Made by a program: the position numbers and the translations under genes. A DNA stretch of 64,000 bases from an uncultured Flavobacteriaceae bacterium. GTDB taxonomy: Bacteria > Bacteroidota > Bacteroidia > Flavobacteriales > Flavobacteriaceae. The notes under the pieces were generated by a model, which was not told the origin of the DNA, ran no database searches, and saw nothing but the letters and a program-made list of their open reading frames with translations. Each line of letters opens with the position of its first letter. Position 1 is the stretch's first letter. The stretch is from positions 310,001-374,000 of the forward strand of contig CANMSI010000002.1 in NCBI GenBank assembly GCA_947500575.1, written 5' to 3'. This document shows positions 29,970-51,496 of this stretch, in pieces.

Positions 29970-30710
29970 TTAAACAAAATTCACTTCGTCCAGATTGAAA
30001 TAAGAAATCCGTTTTGGTTCGCCTTTAATGGCTAAAGCTCCTAAATATCCCTTGGCTGGCACAAAAGAAACTAACTGCCACTTAGTTCTTTCGGAGAGAT
30101 CCCAATGTGTTTTTAAGAGTGCGGCATCCGAGTCGTTCTCCAAAGAGACCGCAAATAAGTTAAGCGGGAAAGATAATCCACTACCTTCTGCTTTAATAAA
30201 GGATTCTTTGCGTGTCCAGCAACGGAAAAAAGCTCTTTGCTGATCATCATTTGGTCTATTTTTTAAGGCAGTAATTTCTTCTTTGGAAAAGAAACCACTA
30301 GCAAGATCTATCGGATCAAAATCATGTTTAATTTTCTCGATATCCACGCCTATGCTTGCTGCATGCCCAAAAGCGAATACAGCCATATTTCCAGAGTGTG
30401 AAATATTGAATTTGAGATTAGTATCTACTGCATAAGATGGCTTTCCGTGGGAACTATAGTTAAAAGGTATGTCTGTCGGGTTGGAATTTAAATAATAACC
30501 AGATAACTTTCTGAGAATACCTCTTGCCGCAATAAATGCTACTCGATCTTTCTCAAAATGAAATTTTCGAGCTCTTTGTCTTTCGTCAGTGGAAAGCAGG
30601 CTATGATATTGTTCTTTATTTTTTTGATCTACATCTATTCTGGCATACCAAACATGAAGTGTATCTTGCTTTATAGAGAGTTGTTCAGTATTTACCATGG
30701 CCATGCTCAC
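29970..30710 (-). CDS. Sfp-type 4'-phosphopantetheinyl transferase
   Basis: 246 residues. It transfers phosphopantetheine from CoA to the carrier domains of the peptide synthetases. Motifs: FNISHSG, the Mg-binding GVDIE (Asp123, Glu125) and WTRKESFIKAEG (Trp165, Lys168, Glu169, Lys173). The start overlaps the end of the C-PCP-TE gene by 4 bp (ATGA), so it is the last gene of the minus-strand synthetase transcript and is dedicated to this cluster. Confidence 0.95.
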   Translation of the reverse strand: MSMAMVNTEQLSIKQDTLHVWYARIDVDQKNKEQYHSLLSTDERQRARKFHFEKDRVAFIAARGILRKLSGYYLNSNPTDIPFNYSSHGKPSYAVDTNLKFNISHSGNMAVFAFGHAASIGVDIEKIKHDFDPIDLASGFFSKEEITALKNRPNDDQQRAFFRCWTRKESFIKAEGSGLSFPLNLFAVSLENDSDAALLKTHWDLSERTKWQLVSFVPAKGYLGALAIKGEPKRISYFNLDEVNFV

Positions 30711-33124: not shown

Positions 33125-35095
33125 TTATTCCAATGTGCTAAACAAACTATCTAAATCATCTTGATTTAGCGAGGTTTCAGGAAAATCTGATGGAGTGTAT
33201 TTCCCAGAATACGTACTTGTGCAATGTGCTATAATTTCTTTAAGATTCTCTTTAAATCGGGCAATAAGCTTTTCGATAGTTGCTTCTTCGTATTGAGTAT
33301 GGCTGTAACTCCAAGTTGTTTCTAGCACATCATCCACCAAGACAGCATTTATTTCCAACGCATAGTATCGTTCACTTTCTGGATGTCTTGTCCCTTGAGT
33401 AATGGATTTTGCTTTGATGGTATCATTCGCTTCAGAACTATTTTGTCTGCCCAAAAAATTAAATACGATTTCTGGATAAGGCACAGGTTCCAAAGATTTT
33501 TTGAGGTACCTTAATACTCCATAACCAATTCCGCCATTTGGTATAGTTCGCAATTGTTCTTTAACACCGATGATCCCTTTTTCAATACTTTCAAAAGCTA
33601 GTACGTCTAATTTTATAGGGAAGTATGCGGTAAACCAACCTGTGGTATTTGTCAAATCAATGGTGGTGCTATTTGTTTCTCTACCATGTTTTTCTACACC
33701 AAAAGCAACAGCCTTACTTTGACTCCAATTTCCAATAGTTTGCGTCAAAGCTGCAAGGAGTAATTCATCTGTTTTGGTTTTATATGCCTCATTTGCCTTA
33801 TCGAGAAGCGAGTGGGTGATGGATGAATTAAAATTTGCTGAATGAACCTTAATATCCTTTTCAAGCAAAGGGAGTATACCAACTTTATCCTTGGGAAGGG
33901 GAGTGGCATTGGAAGTTTGGGCTATCCAAAAACTTTCTTCTTTCTCCAATTCTACTGACTTAGCAGCCTCTTTTAGATGGACTGTCCAGCTCAATATCGA
34001 ATTACTCTCATTAGATGAAACAGTTGATCCATCAGACAGCGGCTGAAGTGCAGTTCGTAAATCGTCTAAAATAATTTGCCATGACAGCGCGTCCACCACC
34101 AAATGATGTGCAACTATAAAACAAATATCGGCCTCGTCATTATGAGTCTTGAAATAAACACATTTGAAAAGAGAACCTTCAGATAAATTAAAGCCGCTTT
34201 GGACCGCATCCATTTGTGCATCAATAGTTTGCTGTTGGTTGGTTGCATCTCTATCAGAAACATCTATATACCTTAGCGAATCTATTTCTGAAGGTGCTTT
34301 TATGTATGCTTTCCAACCATCATCTTCCATTAGAAAACTAGATCTTAAAGCATTGTGTTTTGTAATAATTGAATCTATTACCAGCTTAATAGTATCTTCT
34401 TTCAAATTGCGTATTCCCTCCAGTTGCATGGTTTGATTCCAATAGTGTGGCGCATTTTTATATGTTTCAAAAAACCAATGCTGTATAGGGCTTAAAGGAA
34501 GGGGTCCTTTAAATGCGGGTAGTAGATCGTTTTCTTTTACAAGTTTCTTTTGCTTATCGGAGAACAGCGCAATTTCGGCTATAGTTTGATGGTCAAATAA
34601 GTCGTTTGAAGCTAGTTCTATTCCTAGCTTACGTGCCCTAGCAATAATCTGAATACTTAATATGGAATCCCCGCCAATCTCAAAGAAGTTGTCATGAACA
34701 CTAATCGGTTTAAAATTTAATACCTCTTCCCAGATTTGAATCAGGTTTTGTTCTAATTCGCTACTGGATGCATTTACTTCTTCTTTTTTTGGTGGCTTTT
34801 GTAAGTTTTGCAACCCTTTCTTATCTACTTTGCCATTAGGAAGCAAAGGAATTTTATCTGTTACGGTCATAACAGAGGGAATCATATAATCTGGTAATCG
34901 CTCTCTTAGAAGTGATTTGATTTCATTAATATCTATAGCAGCTGCATCACCCTCGATATACGCTACCAAACGTTTTGGTTTTTCTGAAGAACTATCTAAC
35001 GGATGCTGATTCATTGTCTGCATTAATTTTCTTAAGACAAGACCGCGCTCTTCTTCCGAGAGTTGTTTTATTTTATTTTTTAAAGCTTCTCCCAT
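33125..35095 (-). CDS. NRPS: C-terminal part of a split adenylation domain, PCP and epimerization domain
   Basis: 656 residues from ATG 35095. A helical head (ALKNKIKQLSEEERGL) leads into adenylation motifs A9 (LPDYMIPS, 67-74) and A10 (NGKVDKKGL, catalytic Lys89) without the large A subdomain. Then come a carrier (NFFEIGGDS, Ser144) and an epimerization domain (His330, His331, Asp335 in HHLVVDALSW; GGIGYGVLRYL; VFNFLGRQ). The ATG overlaps the methyltransferase stop as TAATG, so translation is coupled. It must pair with the protein from 35903-38833 to make one working adenylation domain. The E domain predicts a D-configured residue. An in-frame ATG at 35137 would lie inside the methyltransferase gene. 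Confidence 0.92.
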   Translation of the reverse strand: MGEALKNKIKQLSEEERGLVLRKLMQTMNQHPLDSSSEKPKRLVAYIEGDAAAIDINEIKSLLRERLPDYMIPSVMTVTDKIPLLPNGKVDKKGLQNLQKPPKKEEVNASSSELEQNLIQIWEEVLNFKPISVHDNFFEIGGDSILSIQIIARARKLGIELASNDLFDHQTIAEIALFSDKQKKLVKENDLLPAFKGPLPLSPIQHWFFETYKNAPHYWNQTMQLEGIRNLKEDTIKLVIDSIITKHNALRSSFLMEDDGWKAYIKAPSEIDSLRYIDVSDRDATNQQQTIDAQMDAVQSGFNLSEGSLFKCVYFKTHNDEADICFIVAHHLVVDALSWQIILDDLRTALQPLSDGSTVSSNESNSILSWTVHLKEAAKSVELEKEESFWIAQTSNATPLPKDKVGILPLLEKDIKVHSANFNSSITHSLLDKANEAYKTKTDELLLAALTQTIGNWSQSKAVAFGVEKHGRETNSTTIDLTNTTGWFTAYFPIKLDVLAFESIEKGIIGVKEQLRTIPNGGIGYGVLRYLKKSLEPVPYPEIVFNFLGRQNSSEANDTIKAKSITQGTRHPESERYYALEINAVLVDDVLETTWSYSHTQYEEATIEKLIARFKENLKEIIAHCTSTYSGKYTPSDFPETSLNQDDLDSLFSTLE

Positions 35096-35886
35096 TATTT
35101 GACGGCTTTTATAACGGCTATAGAATCTGCCCACCATGTATCTTTTACGTCTTGTGGCATTTTTAAAGGAACTACTTGAACCGAGAATGAACTAAAATAA
35201 CGTAATAATAGACGTTGATGTTCTCTACTCAAAGAATCCACCTCGTTTGAAAAATAGGTAAATGCCCCATTGTCTTTTAAGTGTGTCTGTGCATATGGAA
35301 AGAAATGTTCAGCAAATGTGATACTTCCATTTACATAGCGCATGTATTCATCCTCATTTAGCGGATAGGTATGGAAAAAGATCCCATCAAATGTTCCGAG
35401 ATCATCAATAGTATCTTGCCACAACCCATGAACCAAAGAAATTTCTTTCTCTGCATATTTTTCTTTCCAATGGTGGTATTGATCTACCACGGCATCATTA
35501 CATTCAATAATAGTGTGGGATTGAATAGATTGCTCTTGAATTAAATCGGCAGAGATGCCTCTTCCAAACCCAATTTCTAAGATATCGCCACCATTGGAAG
35601 TTACTACCTCAGACATGGCTTTCATCACTGGAATTTGCCAATCTTCCATGATCTCTTGATCTTCTAATACTTTTTGCTCTCTATCATCCAAGGAATTAAT
35701 GGTGGCCCCGGGCACAAAGCTCTTAGTTTGCTCATGTAAAGCATTGATATCTGCAGTAAATTCTTTTAGGGCTCTATTTACTACAGCATTTCTTTGCGCC
35801 GCTCTTGGAGGTGCAATAAAGTCGTTGTCATTAAGTACAACTGTAACCTCAAAAGCTTCCGATCTTTTTATTCTTTTCATGCTCAT
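35095..35886 (-). CDS. GAMT-like SAM-dependent methyltransferase lying inside a split NRPS module
   Basis: 263 residues. SAM-binding motif I GGDILEIGFGRGIS (99-112) is followed by HTIIECND (124-131), GLWQDT, FDGIFFHTYPL and a late GAFTYFSNEVD. This pattern is that of guanidinoacetate / arginine N-methyltransferases and not of the usual NRPS N-methyltransferase domain. The gene is exactly where methyltransferase domains are inserted in interrupted adenylation domains (between A8 and A9), but it is a separate protein with flanking stop and start codons. The likely target is an amino or guanidino nitrogen of the amino acid activated by the split domain. Confidence 0.88.
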   Translation of the reverse strand: MSMKRIKRSEAFEVTVVLNDNDFIAPPRAAQRNAVVNRALKEFTADINALHEQTKSFVPGATINSLDDREQKVLEDQEIMEDWQIPVMKAMSEVVTSNGGDILEIGFGRGISADLIQEQSIQSHTIIECNDAVVDQYHHWKEKYAEKEISLVHGLWQDTIDDLGTFDGIFFHTYPLNEDEYMRYVNGSITFAEHFFPYAQTHLKDNGAFTYFSNEVDSLSREHQRLLLRYFSSFSVQVVPLKMPQDVKDTWWADSIAVIKAVK

Positions 35887-35902
35887 TTTTTATCAACTAC
35901 CA

Positions 35903-38833
35903 TTAAGATAGTTGCTGCAATACATATTTTTTTTCCTCACTATCCAAAGATGCCACGGAGTCTAGTAACTCGTTAATTTCTACTTCGGTTAGATAGCGTT
36001 CTAAAAGAGTCAATAATTCTTCAGGATCAGTACCATTCTCAATATGCTCGGATAGATGAATCGTTGCAGTTTCTGCCATGAGCACAGCTTTATCTACTAA
36101 TGGATGTTCTAAAATGACTTTTTCAATCTCATCCAATTCAATTCTATAACCACGTATTTTTACTTGTTGATCTAACCTGCCAAGAAATTGGATACAACCA
36201 TCGGATCTGTACCGAGCTAAATCTCCTGTTTTATATAATTTTTCACCCTCTGTCTTGCTAAAAGGATCATCCACTAATACTGAATTGCTAAGCTCAGATC
36301 TATTGATATATTCTTTCGTCAATCCTGGTCCTCCAATATAAATCTCTCCTTTAGCACCAAAGGGAACTTTTTCCATATCCGAATTTAAGAGGTATATTTT
36401 AGCATTTGCCACTGGTTTACCGATAGGCACTCCATTAATAATATCTTCCCTCAATATCTGATGCGCAATACACCAAACAGTTGCTTCTGTAGGACCGTAT
36501 TCATTGTATAATTTTACCTCTGGTAATACTTTAAAATGCTCTTTGCAAACATTAGAAGAACATGCTTCCCCTGCAACCATTACAGTTGTTAAACTTCCAA
36601 TGCGTGCACTATCCACATGTTCCAGAATTAATTGATACAGGGAAGGGAGCATTAATGTATGACTCACTTTATTCTTTTGAATAGAAGCTGCAATCTCTTC
36701 AATATCTTGTTCTATTCGCTTTTCGGAAATAACGAGATTACCTCCGGTGCATAGCGTCCAAAAAATCCCTGCTTTGGAACTATCAAATGAAATGGAAGAC
36801 ATTAGTAAAAAGGCTGTTGGATTCTGATCATAAAAATCCAAACGACCCATAGTGGATTGGATGATGTTCCGATGGGTTATTGGCACTCCTTTAGGCTGAC
36901 CCGTACTGCCCGAGGTATAAATAATGTATGCTAATTGATCTTGAGTAACAGTAGGGAGTGATATGTTATCCTCTGTTCCTGTAACATCTAATTCATCAAT
37001 GCAAATAATTGGGACATCAATCTCCTTAAAAAAGTCGTTTAATTTCGTCTCAGTAAGAATAATATCCGCTTTTGCATCTTCTAGTATATAACTCATCCGT
37101 TGCGGCGGATAATCAGGGTCTATAGGCAAATAAGCCTGCCCTGCTTTTAAAATAGCTAGAAGACCAATAATCATCTCCAAAGAACGATCCATACACAATC
37201 CAATGACACCATTCACAGCTTTGGTCTGTGCTAGCAATTTTTTAGCAATTAGTTCTGATTGCTGATCTAACTCTTTATAGCTAATGGATTTATCTAAATA
37301 ACTTACGGCATTTTTATCTGGATACTGTTGGCATATTTCCTCAATGATCTTGTGTATTCCTGCATAGTTTTCAAAAGGGTTTTGGTTCGCGGCATCCGAA
37401 TAGAAAAATAATTGCTTTTCCATAGCTGTTTCCATTGGGATATTGGAAATTATATTTTGCGGATTTTCTACTACCCCTTCTAGGAGTAGCTTAAAGTACT
37501 CTTGAAACCTTTGAATGGTTGCTTCCTTGAATAGATCGGTAGCATATTCAAAAGTGGCAGAGAGCTGTCCGTTATTCTCGGCAATGTACAAGGTAAGATC
37601 AAACTTAGATACTCCAGTATCAAAGGAATCATGTGCTAGTTCTAGACCTTCCCCAAAGTTTGGTGTTGGCGGCACTGCATGGTACAAGAACATCACTTCA
37701 AAAAATGGATTGCTGCTAAGAGACCTTTGCGGTTGAATGTTTTTTACCAATAAATCAAAAGGTACATTTTTATGAGTAAAGGCTTGCATGGTAGTCTCCT
37801 TTACCATTTTCACTAATGTTTCAAAAGACATTGATGGCTCCAGTTCCGTTCTTAGAACAACGGTGTCATTAAAAAAACCTATAATACCTTCAAGTGCTTT
37901 TTGATCCCTGTTGGCAATGGGAGAACCAATGAGAACATCTTTCTGCCCTGTATATCTGAATAACAACAAATAGTAAATCGATAATAGAAAAACATAAGGG
38001 GTAACATCCATCTTCCTAGATAATGCTAAAACCTCTTTAGAAAGACGAGGAGTAAGTTCTTGTACATTAAATGCTCCTTTAAAAGAAGACCGTATGGGAC
38101 GTTTATAGTCTGTAGGAATATCTAGTGGAGCTAACTCTCCAGACAATTTTTTCTTCCAGTATTCAATTCCTTTGGAACTTACTTCAGTATTTTGTTGCCA
38201 ATATGCATAATCTACATATTGAATTTCTGTTTTTAAAAAACCAGCCGGATTTTGATCTATAAGAGCGCGGTAATGAGCGGCTAGTTGATCTCTAAAAATA
38301 CCCATTGACCATTTGTCTGTAACAATATGATGTAGGGTTAATTGCAGTATGTGATGTTCCTTATGCAGTTGAATTAAGGATACTCTGATTAAAGGACCAT
38401 CCGTAAGGTTAAAAGAAAAGTTTGCATCAGCATGCATAATTTTATGCGCTTCTTTTTCTGCTTCAACCTGCTCTAAATGACAATAATTATATTGGAATAT
38501 TGGCAGTACCGCCTTTTCATTAATTTTCTGAAACACCTTGCCATCTTCTATTTGATAAGTAGATCTTAAAATTGCATGATCTGCATATACTTTTTGGAGG
38601 CTTTTTACCAAAAAATCAGTTTTTAAAATACCCTTTAAAACATATGATTCTGCATAATTATAGAACGTGTTTTGAGGATATAATTGCTGTAAAAACCATA
38701 AGCGCTGCTGCCCATTAGACAATGGGAGACGAATATTATCTGGTGCTTTTGAAATGGTATTAGAAGGAGTACTGGTTTTATTCCTGTTTTTCCATTTGCT
38801 TAGCAACGAATCTTTTGTGTTTTCTTTTTTCAA
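35903..38833 (-). CDS. NRPS: condensation domain plus N-terminal part of a split adenylation domain
   Basis: 976 residues. The condensation domain (35-460) has HHIVTDK (His168, His169, Asp173; the usual Gly is Lys). The adenylation domain starts near 490 with IIYTSGSTGQPKG, YNEYGPTEATVW, KTGDLARY and A8 KIRGYRIELDEIE (892-904), then ends after an 80-residue helical tail without A9 or A10. Those motifs are on the protein from 33125-35095. I read the specificity code as about DSAMMAEVW, which I cannot assign to an amino acid. The tail helix (EEKKYVLQQLS) and the head of the partner protein (LSEEERGLVLRKL) look alike and may form a docking pair. Confidence 0.92.
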   Translation of the reverse strand: MKKENTKDSLLSKWKNRNKTSTPSNTISKAPDNIRLPLSNGQQRLWFLQQLYPQNTFYNYAESYVLKGILKTDFLVKSLQKVYADHAILRSTYQIEDGKVFQKINEKAVLPIFQYNYCHLEQVEAEKEAHKIMHADANFSFNLTDGPLIRVSLIQLHKEHHILQLTLHHIVTDKWSMGIFRDQLAAHYRALIDQNPAGFLKTEIQYVDYAYWQQNTEVSSKGIEYWKKKLSGELAPLDIPTDYKRPIRSSFKGAFNVQELTPRLSKEVLALSRKMDVTPYVFLLSIYYLLLFRYTGQKDVLIGSPIANRDQKALEGIIGFFNDTVVLRTELEPSMSFETLVKMVKETTMQAFTHKNVPFDLLVKNIQPQRSLSSNPFFEVMFLYHAVPPTPNFGEGLELAHDSFDTGVSKFDLTLYIAENNGQLSATFEYATDLFKEATIQRFQEYFKLLLEGVVENPQNIISNIPMETAMEKQLFFYSDAANQNPFENYAGIHKIIEEICQQYPDKNAVSYLDKSISYKELDQQSELIAKKLLAQTKAVNGVIGLCMDRSLEMIIGLLAILKAGQAYLPIDPDYPPQRMSYILEDAKADIILTETKLNDFFKEIDVPIICIDELDVTGTEDNISLPTVTQDQLAYIIYTSGSTGQPKGVPITHRNIIQSTMGRLDFYDQNPTAFLLMSSISFDSSKAGIFWTLCTGGNLVISEKRIEQDIEEIAASIQKNKVSHTLMLPSLYQLILEHVDSARIGSLTTVMVAGEACSSNVCKEHFKVLPEVKLYNEYGPTEATVWCIAHQILREDIINGVPIGKPVANAKIYLLNSDMEKVPFGAKGEIYIGGPGLTKEYINRSELSNSVLVDDPFSKTEGEKLYKTGDLARYRSDGCIQFLGRLDQQVKIRGYRIELDEIEKVILEHPLVDKAVLMAETATIHLSEHIENGTDPEELLTLLERYLTEVEINELLDSVASLDSEEKKYVLQQLS

Positions 38834-38857: not shown

Positions 38858-40096
38858 TTACTCCCATAAACCGAGGTATACTGCCAAATCCCGGATTCGC
38901 ATTTTTACATAATCATAGACTCCCAGTTCAATATCAAATATACGTTCAACACACCAATACAGGGATACTATGATAAGTATGATAGAACCGTAGAATAGGA
39001 TTTTTGGATAAAGCTTGGACTTTCGTAAGAAGTACAATATTGGAAAAATCAATGCAATGATAACTACTTGTCCAATTTCTACGCCTACATTAAAGCCTAA
39101 TAGGGAGAGGGTTAAAAATTCGTTTGTCAATCCTAAATCACTCAGAACACTGGCAAAGCCAAAGCCATGGAAAAGTCCAAATACAAAGGCAATCAACCAA
39201 TCTTTTCCCTTAAAAATAGGGCGTATATTATGAAATGCTGCTAATCCAATAGAAAATGCAATTATAGATTCTACAATTCTTGAAGGTAGCGATACCAACT
39301 CCAAGGAGGCCAAACTTAAGGTAATGGTATGTGCTATGGTAAAAAAGGTAACCACCTTTAAAATATACAAGAATGCTGGTTTAAACCTTGCTACAGGTTG
39401 CCATATACTAGCACCTTTTGATGTGCTTGTCACAGAATCTTCTTGTCTTCTTCTTACTACAGAGGGCAGAATAAGTGCTAAAAGAAACAATATATGATCT
39501 AAACCAATCCATATATGCCAAATACCTTGTTTTATCATGGCCATAAAACCATTCCAAACAGAAACATCTGTGACAGATAGGGTTTCGTCTGTATCATTTG
39601 GGGTAAAAGTTAAAGAAATATTTGCTTCATTATTAATAATACCCGCTTTCCAATTGTATTCAATAATTAAAAAACCACGATGGGTATAATCTTTTTCGAA
39701 AACGGCGCTATAATGAACATCTAGGTCATCTGGTAAGACTTCTGTGTTTTGTAAATCGAACTTCACCAAGAGATAATTGCCTAAACTCACATTTAGTAGA
39801 TCAACATCCTTCAAAACGATTGGATGCTCTCCGTACACCGATTTAAAGGAAGTATTCTTCATTAAATACGCTTGTATATCCTTTATGTAAGGCTGAAGCT
39901 CTTCTAAAGAAGTGTTCTTATCCAGTTGGAGGTTAAATACCTTATTAATTTCATTAATATTCAATTCCCATCGCCCTTCAATACCGTCGTTTTCATAGAT
40001 TCTAAGGTATACATAGCTCTGATTTGGAATGTGAGCTTCTCCAAAAAAGGGAATAAAAAATAGCAATACTAAAGCGTATTTCAATAGTTGATTCAT
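38858..40096 (-). CDS. HupE/UreJ-family membrane protein with extracytoplasmic N-terminal domain
   Basis: 412 residues. A signal peptide and a soluble domain of about 180 residues come before a helical membrane domain of the HupE/UreJ_2 family. Its motifs include IWHIWIGLDHILFLLAL, LFGLFHGFGFASVL and GFNVGVEIGQ, whose His and Asp residues suggest metal binding. HupE/UreJ proteins are linked to nickel, cobalt or other metal transport. It is the first gene of the minus-strand synthetase transcript, 24 bp before the C-A gene. This links the peptide product to metal handling, though the metal is unknown. Confidence 0.87.
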   Translation of the reverse strand: MNQLLKYALVLLFFIPFFGEAHIPNQSYVYLRIYENDGIEGRWELNINEINKVFNLQLDKNTSLEELQPYIKDIQAYLMKNTSFKSVYGEHPIVLKDVDLLNVSLGNYLLVKFDLQNTEVLPDDLDVHYSAVFEKDYTHRGFLIIEYNWKAGIINNEANISLTFTPNDTDETLSVTDVSVWNGFMAMIKQGIWHIWIGLDHILFLLALILPSVVRRRQEDSVTSTSKGASIWQPVARFKPAFLYILKVVTFFTIAHTITLSLASLELVSLPSRIVESIIAFSIGLAAFHNIRPIFKGKDWLIAFVFGLFHGFGFASVLSDLGLTNEFLTLSLLGFNVGVEIGQVVIIALIFPILYFLRKSKLYPKILFYGSIILIIVSLYWCVERIFDIELGVYDYVKMRIRDLAVYLGLWE

Positions 40097-40356: not shown

Positions 40357-41427
40357 ATGCTTAAAAAAGAAAAGAAAACAATCGTTCTCTCAGCAGAGGA
40401 TGTGAATACGATTGTGGAAAAATTTGGGTTCAATAAGTTAATGGATATACTTATTGATAGATTAACCCATACCATCCATAATTATGAGCCTGAGACCCTC
40501 AAGATTCCTATTCGATCAGGATTTAACTATACCGCCGAAAACCCTGGATTGATAGAATGGATGCCTGTTCATCAAAAAGGAGAAGAGGTTGTAATTAAAG
40601 TAGTAGGGTACCATCCTCAGAATCCTGAAAAATTTAATCTCCCAACCATCTTATCTTCTATTTCCGCTTATGATACCAGCACTGGACATTTAATGGGGAT
40701 AGCAGATGGTGTGTTATTAACGGCGCTTAGAACCGGAGCTGCTTCAGCAATTGCAAGTAAATTAATGGCTAAAGTAGATAGTAGTATCTTAGGTCTCATT
40801 GGCTGTGGCGCACAATCAATTACACAATTACATGCCCTCTCTCGCATATTTGAGTTAAAAAAAGTTCTAATTTACGACATAGACGTAGATACCATGCATT
40901 CTTTTGAGGAGCGTATTTCTATGTTAAACTTGGATATAGCAGTTAAAAGAAGTTCAATCAATGAAATTATTGGACAATCAGACATCGTCTGTACAGAAAC
41001 TTCTATTGAAGTGGGGACAGGACCGCTCTTTCAAAATTTACCATTTAAAAAACACTTACATATCAATGCCGTAGGTTCGGATTTTCCTGGGAAAACTGAA
41101 CTTCCTATCGACTTTTTAAAACAGAGTTTTGTTTGTCCTGATTTTCTAGCACAAGCAAAAATTGAAGGTGAATGTCAACAATTGCGTGATAATGAGATAG
41201 GGATAGACTTAGTAGGTTTAACCAAGAATCATATGAATTACAAACATGTGAAGGAACAAACTTCAGTTTTCGATTCCACGGGTTGGGCGTTGGAAGATAT
41301 GGTAGTAATGGATTTATTTTTAGACTTGGCCAAAACCTTTAATATTGGTCTTGAAGTGGCTATTGAGAATATTTCTCAAGATGTTAAAAATCCCTACCAT
41401 TTTTTGCTAAAAGAAGTAACGGTATAG
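40357..41427 (+). CDS. Ornithine cyclodeaminase / mu-crystallin family enzyme
   Basis: 356 residues. The NAD-binding Rossmann motif is GLIGCGAQSITQLHAL, following ALRTGAASAIASK; INAVGSDFPGKTELP is the conserved active-site segment with Asp. Family members turn ornithine into proline, lysine into pipecolate, or make Dap precursors (SbnB). The next three genes are the set that oxidises prolyl-carrier to pyrrolyl-carrier, so proline supply from ornithine is the simplest reading. It leads the plus-strand half of the cluster, divergent from the HupE-like gene across a 260-bp intergenic region. Confidence 0.88.
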   Translation: MLKKEKKTIVLSAEDVNTIVEKFGFNKLMDILIDRLTHTIHNYEPETLKIPIRSGFNYTAENPGLIEWMPVHQKGEEVVIKVVGYHPQNPEKFNLPTILSSISAYDTSTGHLMGIADGVLLTALRTGAASAIASKLMAKVDSSILGLIGCGAQSITQLHALSRIFELKKVLIYDIDVDTMHSFEERISMLNLDIAVKRSSINEIIGQSDIVCTETSIEVGTGPLFQNLPFKKHLHINAVGSDFPGKTELPIDFLKQSFVCPDFLAQAKIEGECQQLRDNEIGIDLVGLTKNHMNYKHVKEQTSVFDSTGWALEDMVVMDLFLDLAKTFNIGLEVAIENISQDVKNPYHFLLKEVTV

Positions 41428-41542: not shown

Positions 41543-42694
41543 ATGAATTTTTCATTAACCGATGAGCAACAAGCATACAAAGAAAAGGTAATTGAATTTG
41601 CCCAAAATGAACTTAATACCTCCTATACCGAAAGGGATAGAGACAGTGTCTTTTCTAGAGAGGATTGGGAAAAGTGTGCGAAATTTGGTTTACAAGGTCT
41701 CGCTACGCCAACTGCGTATGGAGGATCCGCAGACGAAGTAAATATCCTTACTGCTACGGTTGCCATGGAAGGTTTTGGTTACGGTTGTAAAGACAACGGT
41801 TTGGCATTTGGACTGAATGCCCAAATGTGGACGGTACAATTTCCAATTGCTCAATTTGGAACCGAAAGTCAGAAGAAAAAGTTCTTACCAAAATTAGCTG
41901 CGGGAACCTGGATTGGTTGCCATGCACTTACAGAACCCAATGCTGGTTCTGACGTGTATAGTATGGAAACTACTGCCACAAAAGTAGACGGTGGATACAT
42001 CCTAAATGGGAGTAAACGCTATATTACTTTTGCGCCCATATCGGACGTTGTCTTGGTATTCGTCAAAACCAATCCCAAACTAGGGAAATGGGGAATGAGT
42101 GCTTTTCTAGTAGAAAAAGGAATGGAAGGCTTTACCGCAGGTCTTAATAGACCTAAAATGGGTTTAAGAACAGTACCCTTTGGAGATCTCTTTTTTGAAG
42201 ATTGTTTTGTACCCGATGAAAACCTTCTAGGAAAAGAAGGTGCTGGTTGGGCTATTACAAATAGTTCCTTGGAACATGATAGATGTACTATTCTGGCCGG
42301 ACAACTGGGTGCTATGGAATACCAACTTGAGGAGACTATTAAATTTGTAAAAGATAGAAAGCAATTTGGGCAAGCTATAAGCCAGTTTCAATCCGTTTCT
42401 AATCGCATAGCTAATATGAAACTCCGAATAGAGACTTCAAGACTATTACTGTATAAAGTAGCTTGGTTAAAAAGTCAAGGAGCTTCTACTATGATGGAAT
42501 CTGCTTTACTGAAATTACACTTAAGTGAAAGTTTTGTTGACTCTAGCTTAGATGCGATACGCAACCATGGCGGACATGGGTATCTATCTGAAAACGAAAT
42601 TGAACGAAATTTAAGAGATGCTGTGGGTGGTGTTATTTATGCAGGCACTTCAGATATTCAAAGAAATATTATTTCCAAATTATTAGGACTATAA
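41543..42694 (+). CDS. Acyl-CoA dehydrogenase-like flavoenzyme, likely prolyl-S-PCP oxidase
   Basis: 383 residues. ACAD motifs: HALTEPNAGSDVYSMET, FITFAPIS-type middle domain, QLGAMEYQLEETIKFVKDRKQF, NHGGHGYLSE and the C-terminal YAGTSDIQRNIISKLL. It is an FAD enzyme. In pyoluteorin- and prodiginine-type pathways, a member of this family (PltE, RedW) oxidises proline bound to a carrier to pyrrole-2-carboxyl. The neighbours (adenylation enzyme 13 bp downstream, then a free carrier) match that set. Ordinary fatty-acid oxidation is the alternative, but no other such gene is nearby. Confidence 0.88.
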   Translation: MNFSLTDEQQAYKEKVIEFAQNELNTSYTERDRDSVFSREDWEKCAKFGLQGLATPTAYGGSADEVNILTATVAMEGFGYGCKDNGLAFGLNAQMWTVQFPIAQFGTESQKKKFLPKLAAGTWIGCHALTEPNAGSDVYSMETTATKVDGGYILNGSKRYITFAPISDVVLVFVKTNPKLGKWGMSAFLVEKGMEGFTAGLNRPKMGLRTVPFGDLFFEDCFVPDENLLGKEGAGWAITNSSLEHDRCTILAGQLGAMEYQLEETIKFVKDRKQFGQAISQFQSVSNRIANMKLRIETSRLLLYKVAWLKSQGASTMMESALLKLHLSESFVDSSLDAIRNHGGHGYLSENEIERNLRDAVGGVIYAGTSDIQRNIISKLLGL

Positions 42695-44270: not shown

Positions 44271-44504
44271 ATGGAAGAAAAAATTGTAGCATTCGTGAAT
44301 GATCAGATTTCAAGCAATCAAACGGATGAAAAAATAGAGGCTCAGGACGACCTGCTTGGCGGAGGTATCCTTGATTCTCTTGGGATGATGCGCTTAATTA
44401 GTTTTATTGAAACTGAATTTGGAATTAAGGTGCCACCAGAGGATATGACCATTGAAAATTTCATAAATATTGAGACCATTACTGGATATATTTCTAGTAA
44501 ATAA
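44271..44504 (+). CDS. Free-standing peptidyl carrier protein
   Basis: 77 residues: a complete acyl-carrier fold with the phosphopantetheine serine Ser36 in GGILDSLGMMRL. It would carry the starter residue between the ligase, the oxidase and the condensation domain of the following synthetase, which begins 20 bp downstream. Confidence 0.92.
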   Translation: MEEKIVAFVNDQISSNQTDEKIEAQDDLLGGGILDSLGMMRLISFIETEFGIKVPPEDMTIENFINIETITGYISSK

Positions 44505-44524: not shown

Positions 44525-47500
44525 ATGACTCAAAGTAGGAAAAATGCTCTTCCGCTGACGCAAAGTCAGTCGTTAATGTGGACCGGACAGAAATTGAATC
44601 CGGAATCTCCCTTGTACAATGTGATACATACTTTTGACTTCACAGGAGCATTTCATGTATCTAATTTTCAAAGGGCTTTTCAAGAATTGATTGATAGGGT
44701 AGATGTATTTAGAACGGTATTTTTTGAGGAAGAGGATGTCCCTTATCAAAGTGTTTTGGATGTGTATGCGTATGAAATGGATTTTTTGGACTTTTCCTCA
44801 AAATCTAAGGACTTCTTAAACCATTTTATTAAAGAACGTTCCCAGGAGGTTTTGGACCTTCACAAACCTTTATTCGATGCTATTTTAATTAAAATGAGCG
44901 AACAAAGACATGTTTGGTATTTAAATATTCACCATGTCATTACAGATGCTACTTCGTCTACTATTATATATGATGTTATTGCAGATTTGTACAAGCAAAT
45001 TACCCAAGGCGAAGCTTTAAATGTAGAAAATGCACCAGCATTTAGTTCATATGTCCAATTTGAAAAAACACAAAACACAGCAAATGTATCGGATGCCAAA
45101 TCTTATTGGGAAGAAAAAATTGGGGCACTCTCTACGGTGCCTATTTTTTATGGAAAACAACGAAAACAATATACATCAGTTTCTAAAAGAATATCCTTTA
45201 AACTGGGAGTTAAGCTTTCAAAACAATTAAAAGAACTTGCCAAGGACCCATCTATTAGAGGTTTTACGGAGCATTTGACCCTATTTAATATTTTTTCTTC
45301 CTTACTCTTTGTATTCATCTATAGAATAAGTGGCCAGCAAACCATTGCTATTGGAGCTCCTTCTCATAATAGACCAACAAAGCGATTCAAGGAAACAGCA
45401 GGACTCTTTATTGAGATCTTTCCACTACTGGCTTCACTTTCAGAGGATGATACTTTTAATAGTGTACTTCAACGTGCAAAAATAGAGAGCAACGGTTTTT
45501 TAAAAAATGCACAAGCTGGATTGGCAGATGCAGCTACAAGCAGAAGTTTTAACGTGATTCTGAATTATATCAATGCCCGTTTTTCCGACTTGGAGGGTCT
45601 TGAGATGAAATCCAAATGGATTCATCCTGGACATTGTGATCCTGCACATCAATTACGTTGTCATATTGATGATTTTGACGCTTCGGGTGATATTGAAATA
45701 CATTTCGACTTGAATCAAGATGTGTTCGATGATGAATTGACGAAGAAAGTTCCCAATCATTTTTTAGCATTGGTGAGTGCATTTGTAGCCGATATCAACC
45801 AGAATATACATCAGCCTACTTTAATTGGTCTAGAAGAGAAAACAGAATTTCTATCTCAGTTCCAAAATAATGTACCAACATTTATTCCAATTATTAGGAA
45901 GTTCAAGGATACTGCCCAACTAAAGAAAGAGGCTACAGCTTTGGTCTTTCAGGGAAAGGAATTAAGCTATGAGCAACTTGATCAGAAATCCAATCAACTT
46001 GCTCATTATTTGAGAAAAAAAGGTATTGCAAAAGGGGATAGGGTAGCGCTGTATTTTCAACGCACACCTGAGTATATTATAAGTGTTCTTGCAGTCCTTA
46101 AAATAGGAGGAACTTTTATACCAATTCCGTCTGACCAAACCATAAAACGTCTTTCTTTTATAGTAAATGACTCAAACAGCGCAGTATTAATAACAAACAT
46201 GGATATTTCCAATAAGGATGTAGACGTACCTATTATTCCTTTATCGGATCTTATTGCAGTGATTTCTAAAGAAAAAGTAGAAGAACTACCTATTTCAGTA
46301 AATACAATGGACCCTGCATATATGATTTATACTTCTGGATCTACGGGAACACCAAAAGGAGTATTAATACCGCATGCAGCCATTGCAAATTATTTAAATT
46401 GGGCCGAGAATGCTTATGCGCATCAAGATCCATATATATTTCCGTTATGTACTTCCATAGGCTTTGATCTTACAATAACAGCCACTTTTTTACCCTTGCT
46501 AACAGGAGGCCAATTAGTAGTGTACAAGGAAAGTGCTCAGGGCCCAGATATAGCTATTATGGAAGTACTAGAAGAGAATGTAGTTAATAGCATCAAATTA
46601 ACTCCTTCTCATCTACATCTTCTCGCTGGAAAGGATGTTTCTCATTCAAACATCAAGACCATGATTGTAGGGGGTGAAGATTTCAAGACATCCCTCGCGA
46701 ATAAAATTCAAACTATTTTTGGAGCCGATCTTCGCATCTTTAATGAATACGGCCCCACAGAGGCAACCGTTGGATGTATTGTTAGTAAGTTCGATGCTCG
46801 TAGTCATTTGAATGCCTCCGTGCCTATAGGCAAACCAATTGCTCATATGCACGCCTATGTATTAGATTCCCATAAAAATTTAGTCCCAAAAGGAGTGGCA
46901 GGGGTACTTTATCTTGGCGGTATTGGTTTGGCGAGCGGTTATGCCAATGCTTCTGAAAGTACTTCTAAAAAATTCCTGGCAGACCCTTTTATAGAAGGAG
47001 CTAGAATGTATGAGACAGGAGACTTGGTTCGAATTAACAAGCCAGGTGAATTTGAATTTTTAGGAAGAGTAGATGAACAAGTAAAACTCAGAGGATATCG
47101 AATAGAGCTGGAGGATATAGAAGCAAATTTAATATCCCATGCTACAGTAGAAAACTGTTCCGTAGTTGTTTTGGAAAAGGAAAAGGTAATTCCTGAAAAC
47201 GAGGTCATTAATTGTATGGAATGTGGCTTACCCTCGAATTATCCAGAGACAGATTTTAATGAGCAAGGGGTTTGTCACATATGCACTGCCTTCAGAGGAT
47301 ATAAAGAAAAAGCACAACAATACTTTAAAACCAAAAAGGATCTAGTTGAGATTCTTAGCAAGAAACGAACTGAAAATTCATCTTATGATTGCTTATCCTT
47401 ACTAAGCGGCGGAAAAGATAGTACCTATGTATTAGCACAATTAATAGGAATGGGGCTTAAAGTTTTGGCGTTTACATTAGATAACGGTTATATCTCGGAT

Positions 47501-48658
47501 CAAGCGAAGGCAAATGTAGATCGAATTGTCTCTAAACTGCGGGTTGATCATATATATGGTACCACGGAGTACATGAATAAAATATTTGTTGATAGTCTGC
47601 ACAGACATCAAAATGTATGTAACGGATGTTTTAAAACCATCTATACTTTAAGTACGCAGATTGCATTGGAAAAACAAATTCCATTTGTAGTAACTGGTCT
47701 GTCTAGAGGTCAGTTTTTTGAGACTCGTTTGACCGAGGAATTGTTTTGGGATGAGAAGGTAGATGCCGCGCAGATAGATAGAACCATTCTAGAAGCAAGG
47801 AAATTATATCACCAGGAAGAAGATGCCGTTAAATCCCTTTTGGATGTGTCTATGTTTGAAAAGGAAGACACTTTCGAAAAGGTTCAATTTGTAGATTTTT
47901 ATAGGTACAGTGATGTAAGTCTTGAAGAAATGCTGAGATACTTGGAAGAGAAAGTAGGCTGGGTACGGCCTACGGATACAGGTAGGTCTACGAACTGTTT
48001 AATCAATCAATTAGGTATTTACGTTCATAAAAAACAGAAAGGATATAGCAACTATTCTTTTCCTTATAGCTGGGATGTGCGTATGGGACATAAGACAAGA
48101 ACGGAGACCTTGGATGAGATCAATGAAGTAATTGATGAAGGTGAGGTAAAAAGAATCATGAGTGAGATAGGCTATAGCGAACCAGCGGAGGAAGCATTGC
48201 ATTCAGAATTATTGGTGGGTTATTATACAGGAAGTCAAAAAGTTAGCTCTAAAGAGTTGAGTGCACACTTAAAAAAGGAATTGCCAGAATACATGATCCC
48301 GCAGCTTTTTAAGCATCTGGAAGAATTGCCTTTGACGTCCAATGGTAAAATTGATAAATCTGTACTTCGTAAACTAAATGCTGCACAATTAGAAATGGAT
48401 ACTCCATATATTGCTCCTAGAGGAGAAATAGAGGAGTTGCTCGCGGCAATTTGGTCAGAGGTATTAAAAATAAAACAAGTAGGTGTACACGATAATTTTA
48501 TTTCTTTAGGAGGACACTCACTTGCTGCAATTCAAACCACAGCAAGGATTAATGAAGAATTAGAAATAGAATTGCCGTTGAATAAAGTATTTGAATTTCC
48601 AACGGTTGAACAATATTCAGCATATATAGAAAACACCCTAATTGAACTTTTACAATAA
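44525..48658 (+). CDS. NRPS C-A-PCP whose adenylation domain is interrupted by a PP-loop (AANH/amidotransferase-like) domain
   Basis: 1377 residues. Condensation domain 1-440 (His136, His137, Asp141 in HHVITDA). Adenylation motifs: YTSGSTGTPKG (602-612), FNEYGPTEATVG (739-750), A8 KLRGYRIELEDIE (854-866). Between A8 and A9 lies a 300-residue insert (about 893-1205): CMEC/CHIC pairs (897, 900, 917, 920), PP-loop SGGKDS (961-966), CNGC (1032, 1035) and STNC (1158), close to N-acetyl-sugar amidotransferases. A9 LPEYMIP (1253-1259) and A10 NGKIDK (Lys1275) follow, then a carrier (Ser1332). The specificity code reads DLTKIGEVGK, one conservative change from the Asn code DLTKLGEVGK. The insert probably makes an amidine, thioamide or related group on the carrier-bound chain; which one is inference. 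Confidence 0.93.
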   Translation: MTQSRKNALPLTQSQSLMWTGQKLNPESPLYNVIHTFDFTGAFHVSNFQRAFQELIDRVDVFRTVFFEEEDVPYQSVLDVYAYEMDFLDFSSKSKDFLNHFIKERSQEVLDLHKPLFDAILIKMSEQRHVWYLNIHHVITDATSSTIIYDVIADLYKQITQGEALNVENAPAFSSYVQFEKTQNTANVSDAKSYWEEKIGALSTVPIFYGKQRKQYTSVSKRISFKLGVKLSKQLKELAKDPSIRGFTEHLTLFNIFSSLLFVFIYRISGQQTIAIGAPSHNRPTKRFKETAGLFIEIFPLLASLSEDDTFNSVLQRAKIESNGFLKNAQAGLADAATSRSFNVILNYINARFSDLEGLEMKSKWIHPGHCDPAHQLRCHIDDFDASGDIEIHFDLNQDVFDDELTKKVPNHFLALVSAFVADINQNIHQPTLIGLEEKTEFLSQFQNNVPTFIPIIRKFKDTAQLKKEATALVFQGKELSYEQLDQKSNQLAHYLRKKGIAKGDRVALYFQRTPEYIISVLAVLKIGGTFIPIPSDQTIKRLSFIVNDSNSAVLITNMDISNKDVDVPIIPLSDLIAVISKEKVEELPISVNTMDPAYMIYTSGSTGTPKGVLIPHAAIANYLNWAENAYAHQDPYIFPLCTSIGFDLTITATFLPLLTGGQLVVYKESAQGPDIAIMEVLEENVVNSIKLTPSHLHLLAGKDVSHSNIKTMIVGGEDFKTSLANKIQTIFGADLRIFNEYGPTEATVGCIVSKFDARSHLNASVPIGKPIAHMHAYVLDSHKNLVPKGVAGVLYLGGIGLASGYANASESTSKKFLADPFIEGARMYETGDLVRINKPGEFEFLGRVDEQVKLRGYRIELEDIEANLISHATVENCSVVVLEKEKVIPENEVINCMECGLPSNYPETDFNEQGVCHICTAFRGYKEKAQQYFKTKKDLVEILSKKRTENSSYDCLSLLSGGKDSTYVLAQLIGMGLKVLAFTLDNGYISDQAKANVDRIVSKLRVDHIYGTTEYMNKIFVDSLHRHQNVCNGCFKTIYTLSTQIALEKQIPFVVTGLSRGQFFETRLTEELFWDEKVDAAQIDRTILEARKLYHQEEDAVKSLLDVSMFEKEDTFEKVQFVDFYRYSDVSLEEMLRYLEEKVGWVRPTDTGRSTNCLINQLGIYVHKKQKGYSNYSFPYSWDVRMGHKTRTETLDEINEVIDEGEVKRIMSEIGYSEPAEEALHSELLVGYYTGSQKVSSKELSAHLKKELPEYMIPQLFKHLEELPLTSNGKIDKSVLRKLNAAQLEMDTPYIAPRGEIEELLAAIWSEVLKIKQVGVHDNFISLGGHSLAAIQTTARINEELEIELPLNKVFEFPTVEQYSAYIENTLIELLQ

Positions 48659-49261: not shown

Positions 49262-51496
49262 ATGAAAAAGTATATAATAGTAGGCATTTTCATCGCTTTT
49301 ATGGGAACCCTCAGCGCACATGAGCTTAAGGGAACAATTACTACAGAAGATGGTTTGCCAATAGAAGGGGCAGGAGTTTATAATAAGACCACTGGGGGGT
49401 ATACCTACTCCAATGTTTCGGGTTATTTTGAATTGGATGACATCTCAGAAGGAAATCTCATTAATTTTTATAGTTTAGGTTACGAAAAACAGGAAATTAC
49501 CATCGCTGTTAATCAATTGGATGCTACCATTGCTGTAGTATTAATAGAGGCGGCGGTATCACTAGATCAGGTAGTATTGGTCTCCAAAGTAAATGCGTTG
49601 AGTCATTTTGTGAATGTAGATGTTAAAGCGAATCCTGTAAAATCTGCCCAAGAAATCCTTAGAAAAGTACCCGGTTTAATCATTGGACAACATGCTGGTG
49701 GAGGAAAGGCAGAGCAAATATTTTTAAGAGGGTTTGATGTAGATCATGGAACAGACATTGCTATTAATGTAGATGGTTTACCCGTAAATATGGTATCACA
49801 TGCCCATGGGCAGGGATATGCAGATTTGCACTTTGTAATTCCAGAAACCATTGATAACATTGACTTTGGCAAAGGACCTTATTATGCCAATAAGGGGAAT
49901 TTTAATACTGCTGGATATATAGATTTAAATACTAAGAAAACCTTAGACGAAAATTTAATCTCTATTGAGGCTGGGCAATTCAATACACTCAGAGCAGTAG
50001 GCTTACTAAAGCTTTCTGAAGGTGAATACAGCAATGCCTATTTTGCCTCTGAATATGTACTCACAGATGGTGTTTTTGAATCACCTCAAAATTTCAATCG
50101 TCTTAATCTTATGGGACGATATAATTATAATAATCTGGAAGATGAGGAATTAACTATTTCATTATCTCATTTCCAGAGCAAGTGGAATGCTTCTGGTCAA
50201 ATCCCAGTAAGAGCAGTAGAACAAGGTCTTATAGGAAGGTTTGGTGCTATAGACGATACCGAAGGTGGTATTACAAGTAGGAGCAACCTCTGGGTAAACC
50301 ACTCCAAACAAATAGATGAGCACCAGCGTATTAAAACCAAAGCTTTTCTCTCCAAGTACGACTTTGAGTTGTATTCCAACTTTACCTTCTTTTTAGAAGA
50401 TCCTGTGAATGGTGATCAAATAAGACAGAAAGAAGATCGCACCATTATTGGAGCAGAAACCGTGTATGATCGATCGTATCATCTAGAAAACCATGATGCA
50501 CAGTTTAAATATGAAGCAGGAATTGGATTTCGCTATGACGATAACAATGATGTTGAATTATCGCGAACACGAAATCGAAGAGAAACTCTGGAACGCTTGG
50601 CTTTTGGTGATATCGATGAATTAAATGGGTATGCCTTTCTAGGAGGTACTTATAAAAACAAAAAGTGGACTTTAAATCCGAGCTTAAGATTGGATTATCT
50701 CAAATTTGATTATACCGATTTTTTAAGCGAACAATTTGATAATCAAAGCGAGAGTGATGTAATTTTGAGTCCAAAGTTCAACGCACTCTTTGCCGCTTCG
50801 CCTAATGTGCAACTTTTTGCAAAAACAGGAATTGGTTTTCATTCCAATGATACTAGAGTGGTTACCGCCGGTACTGGAGAAAAAACCCTGCCTGCGGCTT
50901 TTGGATCTGATATTGGTGTTATCCTAAAGCCCATAGAAAAGATGGTGATCAATGCTGCCCTTTGGAATCTGTATTTACAGCAAGAATTTGTGTATGTTGG
51001 TGATGCTGGTGTGGTTGAACCCAGCGGGAAAACAGCTCGATATGGAGTAGATTTTGGTATTCGATATCAATTTACAGATTGGTTATATGCCAATGCAGAC
51101 CTTAACTATACCCATGCGAGAAGTACTGAGGAAGCAGATGGCGAAGATTTTATTCCCTTAGCACCCGATTTTACATCTTCTGGGGGTATTTCTATTCAGA
51201 ATTTGGGAAAAGTATCTGGCGGACTAAGTTATCGATATGTAGATGATAGACCTGCCAATGAAGACAACTCCATTATTGCAGAAGGATATCTTGTAACCGA
51301 TTTTAACCTGAATTATAATTTCGCAAAAGGATGGTCCTTTGGGATCATTGTAGAAAATTTATTTGATGTTGAATGGAATGAAACACAGTTTGCCACCAAT
51401 ACGAGATTAATGAATGAACCAACTGGAGTAGAGGAAATTACGTTTACACCAGGGACGCCATTTTATCTTAGAGCCAAATTATCGGTAAACTTTTAG
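49262..51496 (+). CDS. TonB-dependent outer-membrane receptor, probable metallophore or metal receptor
   Basis: 744 residues. Signal peptide (IIVGIFIAFMGTLSAHELKG), a carboxypeptidase-regulatory-like domain (TTEDGLPIEGAGVY, YFELDDISEG), a plug with QEILRKVPGLIIG, FLRGFDVDHGTDI, VDGLPVN and SHAHGQGYADLHF, then a 22-strand-type barrel ending ...RAKLSVNF. It is a classical receptor (FhuA/CirA size), not a SusC. The His-containing HAHGQGY segment of this receptor subfamily and the His-rich gene before it suggest metal or metal-complex import. It closes the plus-strand part of the peptide cluster. Confidence 0.9.
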   Translation: MKKYIIVGIFIAFMGTLSAHELKGTITTEDGLPIEGAGVYNKTTGGYTYSNVSGYFELDDISEGNLINFYSLGYEKQEITIAVNQLDATIAVVLIEAAVSLDQVVLVSKVNALSHFVNVDVKANPVKSAQEILRKVPGLIIGQHAGGGKAEQIFLRGFDVDHGTDIAINVDGLPVNMVSHAHGQGYADLHFVIPETIDNIDFGKGPYYANKGNFNTAGYIDLNTKKTLDENLISIEAGQFNTLRAVGLLKLSEGEYSNAYFASEYVLTDGVFESPQNFNRLNLMGRYNYNNLEDEELTISLSHFQSKWNASGQIPVRAVEQGLIGRFGAIDDTEGGITSRSNLWVNHSKQIDEHQRIKTKAFLSKYDFELYSNFTFFLEDPVNGDQIRQKEDRTIIGAETVYDRSYHLENHDAQFKYEAGIGFRYDDNNDVELSRTRNRRETLERLAFGDIDELNGYAFLGGTYKNKKWTLNPSLRLDYLKFDYTDFLSEQFDNQSESDVILSPKFNALFAASPNVQLFAKTGIGFHSNDTRVVTAGTGEKTLPAAFGSDIGVILKPIEKMVINAALWNLYLQQEFVYVGDAGVVEPSGKTARYGVDFGIRYQFTDWLYANADLNYTHARSTEEADGEDFIPLAPDFTSSGGISIQNLGKVSGGLSYRYVDDRPANEDNSIIAEGYLVTDFNLNYNFAKGWSFGIIVENLFDVEWNETQFATNTRLMNEPTGVEEITFTPGTPFYLRAKLSVNF

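Follow-up and report, generated by a model that had tools for sequence, protein, structure and literature searches.

Can an adenylation (A) domain that is interrupted by a methyltransferase (MT) be kept as a working unit when its parts are encoded as three separate proteins? This question is raised by a stretch of 64,000 nucleotides from an uncultured Flavobacteriaceae bacterium (hereafter the window), in which three consecutive genes on the minus strand encode a C-Acore protein (P0003, 35903..38833, 976 aa, start codon TTG), a free-standing, guanidinoacetate-methyltransferase-like SAM methyltransferase (P0002, 35095..35886, 263 aa) and an Asub-T-E protein (P0001, 33125..35095, 656 aa). The initial annotation of this DNA had seen in them the parts of an interrupted A domain that is severed at both junctions and seems designed to reassemble, and its coordinates, strand and reading frames for the three ORFs are right. 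The split itself is confirmed; the comparison of homologous sequences supports an interrupted A domain that was cut twice and kept functional, and a design for reassembly, with docking through helices, is what we infer from it. The corallorazine precedent, planctomycete loci with one cut, two loci with a whole A domain, the unusual family of the MT and the neighboring proteins P0006 and P0005 go beyond the initial annotation.

P0003 consists of a condensation domain (residues 36–474) and an A core at about residues 495–921 (A1–A8; 36071..37351, minus strand), whose specificity code was read as DSAMMAEVWK. It matches TIGR01733 over model positions 1–408 of 409 and contains neither a C-terminal A subdomain nor a T domain, so that the protein does end after A8, as first proposed. 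The A8 motif reads QVKIRGYRIELDEIE and is followed by about 55 further residues before the stop. This tail (35906..36070, minus strand) carries the motif L..SIE.L..EE...L..L and is helical in the model of the homologue L018. The distance from A8 to the stop is 70–94 residues in all 20 of the three-protein loci described below, and in uncut homologues about 60 residues, a normal linker, lead from A8 to A9.

The missing subdomain lies at the start of P0001 (34796..34981, minus strand). The order in this protein is a 30-residue helical head, A9 (LPDYMIP), A10 (LPNGKVD), a T domain and an E-type condensation domain; it begins just before A9 and A10, as had been stated, and both motifs precede the T domain, the arrangement that marks the corallorazine type. 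Profile comparison and structure prediction define the head (35006..35095, minus strand) as an N-terminal helical hairpin, predicted at residues 3–10 and 14–29 with pLDDT 84–91 on a disordered linker; a search of the PDB with the head peptide gave no match. Two tandem T domains stand right after Asub in L004, L007, L009, L010, L014 and L015, and one in the window.

The similarity between the helices at the two broken ends, part of the original proposal, holds when the loci are compared as profiles. In hhalign, a 20-sequence tail profile and a 20-sequence head profile reached a score of 21.7 (Prob 62), the best score of the column-shuffled controls was 13.4 (n = 50), and the real profiles thus surpassed 50 of 50. 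Tail and head flank the MT, and neither is present in L052 and L063, whose A domains are unsplit; the Acore tail with its helices and the Asub hairpin are the likely docking elements. The profile Prob of 62 and the low conservation of the tail weigh against the three-protein reading. In the model of the L018 Acore-MT protein (mean pLDDT 81.9), two helices (441–449 and 453–464) are seen in the tail, and since the confidence is low in the tail, its neighbors and the stretch preceding the MT core, the model does not give the docking geometry.

In gene order, P0002 lies between the A8 and A9 halves, as the initial annotation had it. Its stop codon TAA (35097–35095) and the ATG of P0001 (35095–35093) share one base in the sequence TAATG (35093..35097, minus strand). 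The closest solved relatives are guanidinoacetate methyltransferases (PDB 3orh, 1xcj), with E values of 8e-24 for the single sequence and 5e-26 for the profile; the homology extends over the SAM domain and leaves the first 70 or so residues unaligned. No Pfam family was assigned at E 0.001, the weak match to Methyltransf_25 having an E value of 0.013, and neither the single sequence nor the profile matched the TioS structure 5wmm at E 0.01. We take Glu46 and Asp135 to be the carboxylates that hold the guanidine in human guanidinoacetate N-methyltransferase. At the aligned positions P0002 has Q84 and H172, both acids being replaced; across the MT family the first position is Q in 24 of 27 sequences and L in three, and the second is an invariant H (27/27). 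With the guanidine-binding acids missing, a role of P0002 as a true guanidinoacetate methyltransferase was rejected. A region N-terminal to the core fold is common to the free and the fused MTs, and the MT part of the L018 model opens with a strand pair and a long helix before this fold. The residue to be methylated would be the predicted histidine, modified either at its sp2 ring nitrogen, which would suit an enzyme of this kind, or, just as possibly, at its α-amine.

Homologous loci were located via the MT of the window. A scan over 84,980 species gave 19 loci out of its 26 pattern matches, and profile searches of whole genomes added eight strong MT matches and one distant lone enzyme, so that, with the window, 28 loci carry this MT. 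The profile-search tallies, query genomes included, were 2 of 392, 5 of 241, 3 of 148, 3 of 196, 3 of 150 and 2 of 92. Near kin rarely carry the MT: besides the genome of the window itself, 99 relatives gave one weak match (E 7e-4). A search of 395 genomes of the class found the MT absent, and one of plasmids gave no match. The distant match in G799 (L041/L047) was set aside as a lone methyltransferase without any NRPS domain in 14 kb. Since the MT served as the query, every locus was to some degree bound to contain one, and fused forms bearing other MTs would escape the search.

The three-protein cut recurs in 20 of the 28 loci (the window, L003–L017, L020 and L057–L059), which span Bacteroidota, Gammaproteobacteria and one Planctomycetaceae MAG, and hence three phyla. 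In five planctomycete loci (L018, L019, L054–L056), Acore and MT are fused and the only cut precedes A9; L045 has the same fusion on a contig that ends inside the MT. Two further loci, L051/L052 and L053/L063, from Rhodohalobacter and a relative, have a whole A domain, with the MT placed beside the PP-loop NRPS. Fused homologues, which the initial annotation had suggested looking for, exist as Acore-MT proteins, and a single chain of Acore-MT-Asub occurs in none of the 27 decidable loci. Two observations concern individual loci: in L017 (4344-6095), the E piece and the C/TE piece after it occupy different, overlapping frames, suggestive of a frameshift in the MAG, and in L018 (3231-4151) and L019 (3142-4032) a methyltransferase-like gene (about 300 aa, by eye) separates the free carrier protein from the NRPS.

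In the A-core tree, the fused forms make up one clade and the whole forms another, and the three-protein form is explained with two changes; the MT tree calls for three. Both trees were midpoint-rooted with long outgroup branches and do not settle the direction of change. The VIA-align rows span essentially the A core alone and are uninformative on the MT part.

Among the alternatives to a working module built from all three proteins, the one that survives best holds that the A halves reassemble and the MT never docks, being a free tailoring enzyme whose position is a relic of a twice-cut ancestral A-MT-A domain. The two loci with a whole A domain speak for it and against the three-protein module: there the MT, if working, acts next to an A domain that is intact and sits on another protein, from which it follows that the module requires neither the split nor contact with the MT. 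Moreover, the MTs of L051/L052 and L053/L063 nest among the Flavobacteriaceae three-piece MTs (94/96, on a branch that is not starred). On the other hand, the MT is kept in every split locus, a point weakened by the MT-based search, the N-terminal region is shared by free and fused enzymes, and in the five planctomycete loci the MT is fused to Acore. A non-docking MT that is a mere relic between the halves is a possible but rather unlikely account; preferred is a module of three proteins in which the MT may dock.

The genes around the three-protein module form a recurrent set. Downstream, on the minus strand, follow the C-T-TE protein P0004 (30707..33121, 804 aa), which has no A domain, and a 4'-phosphopantetheinyl transferase (29970..30710); the T domain of P0004 must be loaded in trans, or its module merely passes the chain on. 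On the other side lie a HupE/UreJ_2-type membrane protein (38858..40096, minus strand), whose place next to the NRPS genes is conserved in many of the homologous loci, and, on the plus strand, an ornithine cyclodeaminase/mu-crystallin family protein (40357..41427), an acyl-CoA dehydrogenase family protein (41543..42694), the complete stand-alone A domain P0006 (42708..44261), whose PDB matches include prolyl-carrier-protein ligases, a free carrier protein of 77 aa (44271..44504) with counterparts in many mapped loci, the C-A-T protein P0005 (44525..48658) and a TonB-dependent receptor (49262..51496), found in several homologous loci as well. All of these genes belong to the conserved surroundings. 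As guesses, a starter of the prolyl or pyrrolyl type and a product imported through TonB would fit the cluster.

P0005 has an interrupted A domain of its own, in one chain. Its insert at about 47210-48160, between A8 and A9, is a PP-loop domain of WbuX/QueC-like type that resembles N-acetyl sugar amidotransferases (TIGR03573, E 7e-35). The code of P0005 was read as DLTLIGEVGK, which we take to be asparagine-like, and the inserted PP-loop domain could convert the amide of a side chain to an amidine or thioamide. Insertions of this type were mapped in nine sources (the window, L004, L005, L007, L020, L051, L053, L058 and L059) and are absent from the mapped planctomycete clusters; a literature search for A domains with a PP-loop insert found no description of them.

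Is the split A domain itself still active? Read with hand-placed anchors, the ten-residue codes of all 27 A cores, whether cut or not, conform to DS[AVT][MLCV][IMLV]AEVWK, and those of L008 and L055 are exactly DSALIAEVWK. The latter is a published histidine signature, with the β-hydroxy form said to be accepted too (PMC12283262). By this code the split A domain is predicted to activate histidine or a modified histidine. The motifs on both sides of the cuts are intact, as originally claimed: the A3, A5, A7 and A8 patterns are present in 27 of 27 A cores, both unsplit ones included, and A10, as GK[VILA][DN], is found in each of the 25 Asub proteins (in 23 by a stricter pattern, in L058 and L059 otherwise). 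Values of dN/dS, taken from six pairs, were below 0.43 wherever they could be computed (saturation at synonymous sites prevented this for several): 0.04–0.18 for the MT, 0.12–0.25 for Acore, 0.11–0.39 for Asub and 0.18–0.42 for the tail, the least conserved part. The MT, Acore, Asub and the tail are thus all under purifying selection.

These figures bear on a second alternative, in which the split A domain is dead and the T domain is loaded in trans by P0006 or P0005. Trans loading probably does occur somewhere in the line, as the C-T-TE protein has no A domain, and P0006 is complete, free and close to a carrier protein of its own. Nevertheless, core motifs and one substrate code kept throughout the 27 A cores, together with the low dN/dS, make a dead domain improbable. 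A redundant A domain elsewhere, which would have made the fragments dispensable according to the initial annotation, was rejected too: in the whole genome, TIGR01733 passes its cut-off in only three places, all inside the cluster, and the two other A domains there (P0006 and P0005) carry codes unlike that of the split one. An active split domain remains the preferred reading.

The gene junctions are likewise conserved. The MT stop and the Asub start overlap in 22 of 25 loci, by four bases in 13 and by one base, as in the window, in nine; they are two bases apart in two loci and 62 apart in one, and hence lie within two bases of each other in 24 of 25. Acore and MT share a frame in eight of the 20 three-protein loci, about one third being expected by chance, and programmed stop readthrough or frameshifting that would join the two was rejected, given this random frame relation and the varying gap lengths. 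The shared frame in those eight loci is also all that speaks for an assembly error, frameshift or recent decay of one interrupted A domain, an idea that can be dismissed, as the identical cut is found in 20 separate assemblies, one error would not recur across three phyla, the same-frame share matches chance, and start codons, overlaps and purifying selection are maintained. With 19 further loci showing the same cut with intact motifs, decay does not apply, in agreement with the initial annotation. The same cut has been kept in bacteria of several phyla, and the parts therefore most likely work together as separate proteins.

A precedent exists in corallorazine biosynthesis. The A domain of Crz1/Crz2 from Corallococcus coralloides is split into two pieces and active in vitro, Crz1.2 being inactive alone and active together with Crz2 (PMC11342130). 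Crz and the window system share the cut between A8 and A9, the position of A9 and A10 on the next protein together with T, and the MT in between. They differ in that Crz is cut once, with the MT embedded in Crz1, whereas the A domain of the window is cut twice and has a separate MT of the guanidinoacetate-methyltransferase lineage. Fusion of the MT to the C-terminus of the A core is found in Crz and in L018, L019, L054, L055 and L056, not in the window, and these planctomycete loci have the Crz1 domain order C-A-T-C-A-nMT. The substrate is glycine in Crz and, by prediction, histidine in the window; downstream, Crz continues with T-TD and the window with T-E followed by C-T-TE. The window system is a second occurrence of a split A domain besides corallorazine, cut twice and with an MT of another lineage.

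The interrupted A domains of TioS and KtzH carry their MT between a8 and a9 (PMC11355689). In this comparison, MT placement in gene order and A core fold are alike, but TioS and KtzH have A-MT-A in a single chain, whereas in the window A1–A8, MT and A9–A10 are three ORFs and the MT is free. In Foldseek, the TioS interrupted A domain (5wmm) was the second match of the L018 Acore-MT model (803 columns), and with an rmsd of 18.7 the two agree in their single domains, not as a rigid whole, so that A and M are placed differently relative to each other or their placement is unsure. Within the openly licensed literature, a scope outside which lies the survey of interrupted A domains by Lundy 2020 (it may describe a free or GAMT-like MT), neither a twice-cut A domain with a free MT nor this MT lineage in NRPSs was found; for methylhistidine with an NRPS and a methyltransferase, no relevant paper turned up, judged by title.

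Taken as a whole, the evidence is best explained by a three-protein module whose halves would reassemble in trans, with histidine loaded and methylated by the MT, a reading to which we assign a probability of roughly 0.7. Three translationally coupled proteins would make up one NRPS module. C-Acore and Asub-T-E would associate, with A9 and the A10 lysine contributed by Asub-T-E to complete the active site on C-Acore; once reassembled, the A domain would activate the amino acid and load the T domain of the Asub protein; and the free MT would N-methylate the carrier-bound residue before or alongside epimerization by the E domain. A stricter version, in which the holo-A domain exists only as a three-protein complex, docking of tail and hairpin, a pair kept in three phyla, clamps the GAMT-derived MT between the A halves, and an N-methylated, perhaps ring-methylated, histidine is formed on the carrier, is more tentative and, as it stands, rather doubtful.

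For the NRPS family, the cut at the A8–A9 hinge, known from a single report as a peculiarity of corallorazine synthesis, emerges as a stable design across phyla, and the inserted methyltransferase of an A domain can be a separate protein. The MT lineage is new to NRPSs as far as the literature searches show. Together, the twice-cut, once-cut and uncut loci make up a natural series through which the needs of A-domain reassembly and of methylation in trans become directly testable, and they offer natural split points for NRPS engineering.
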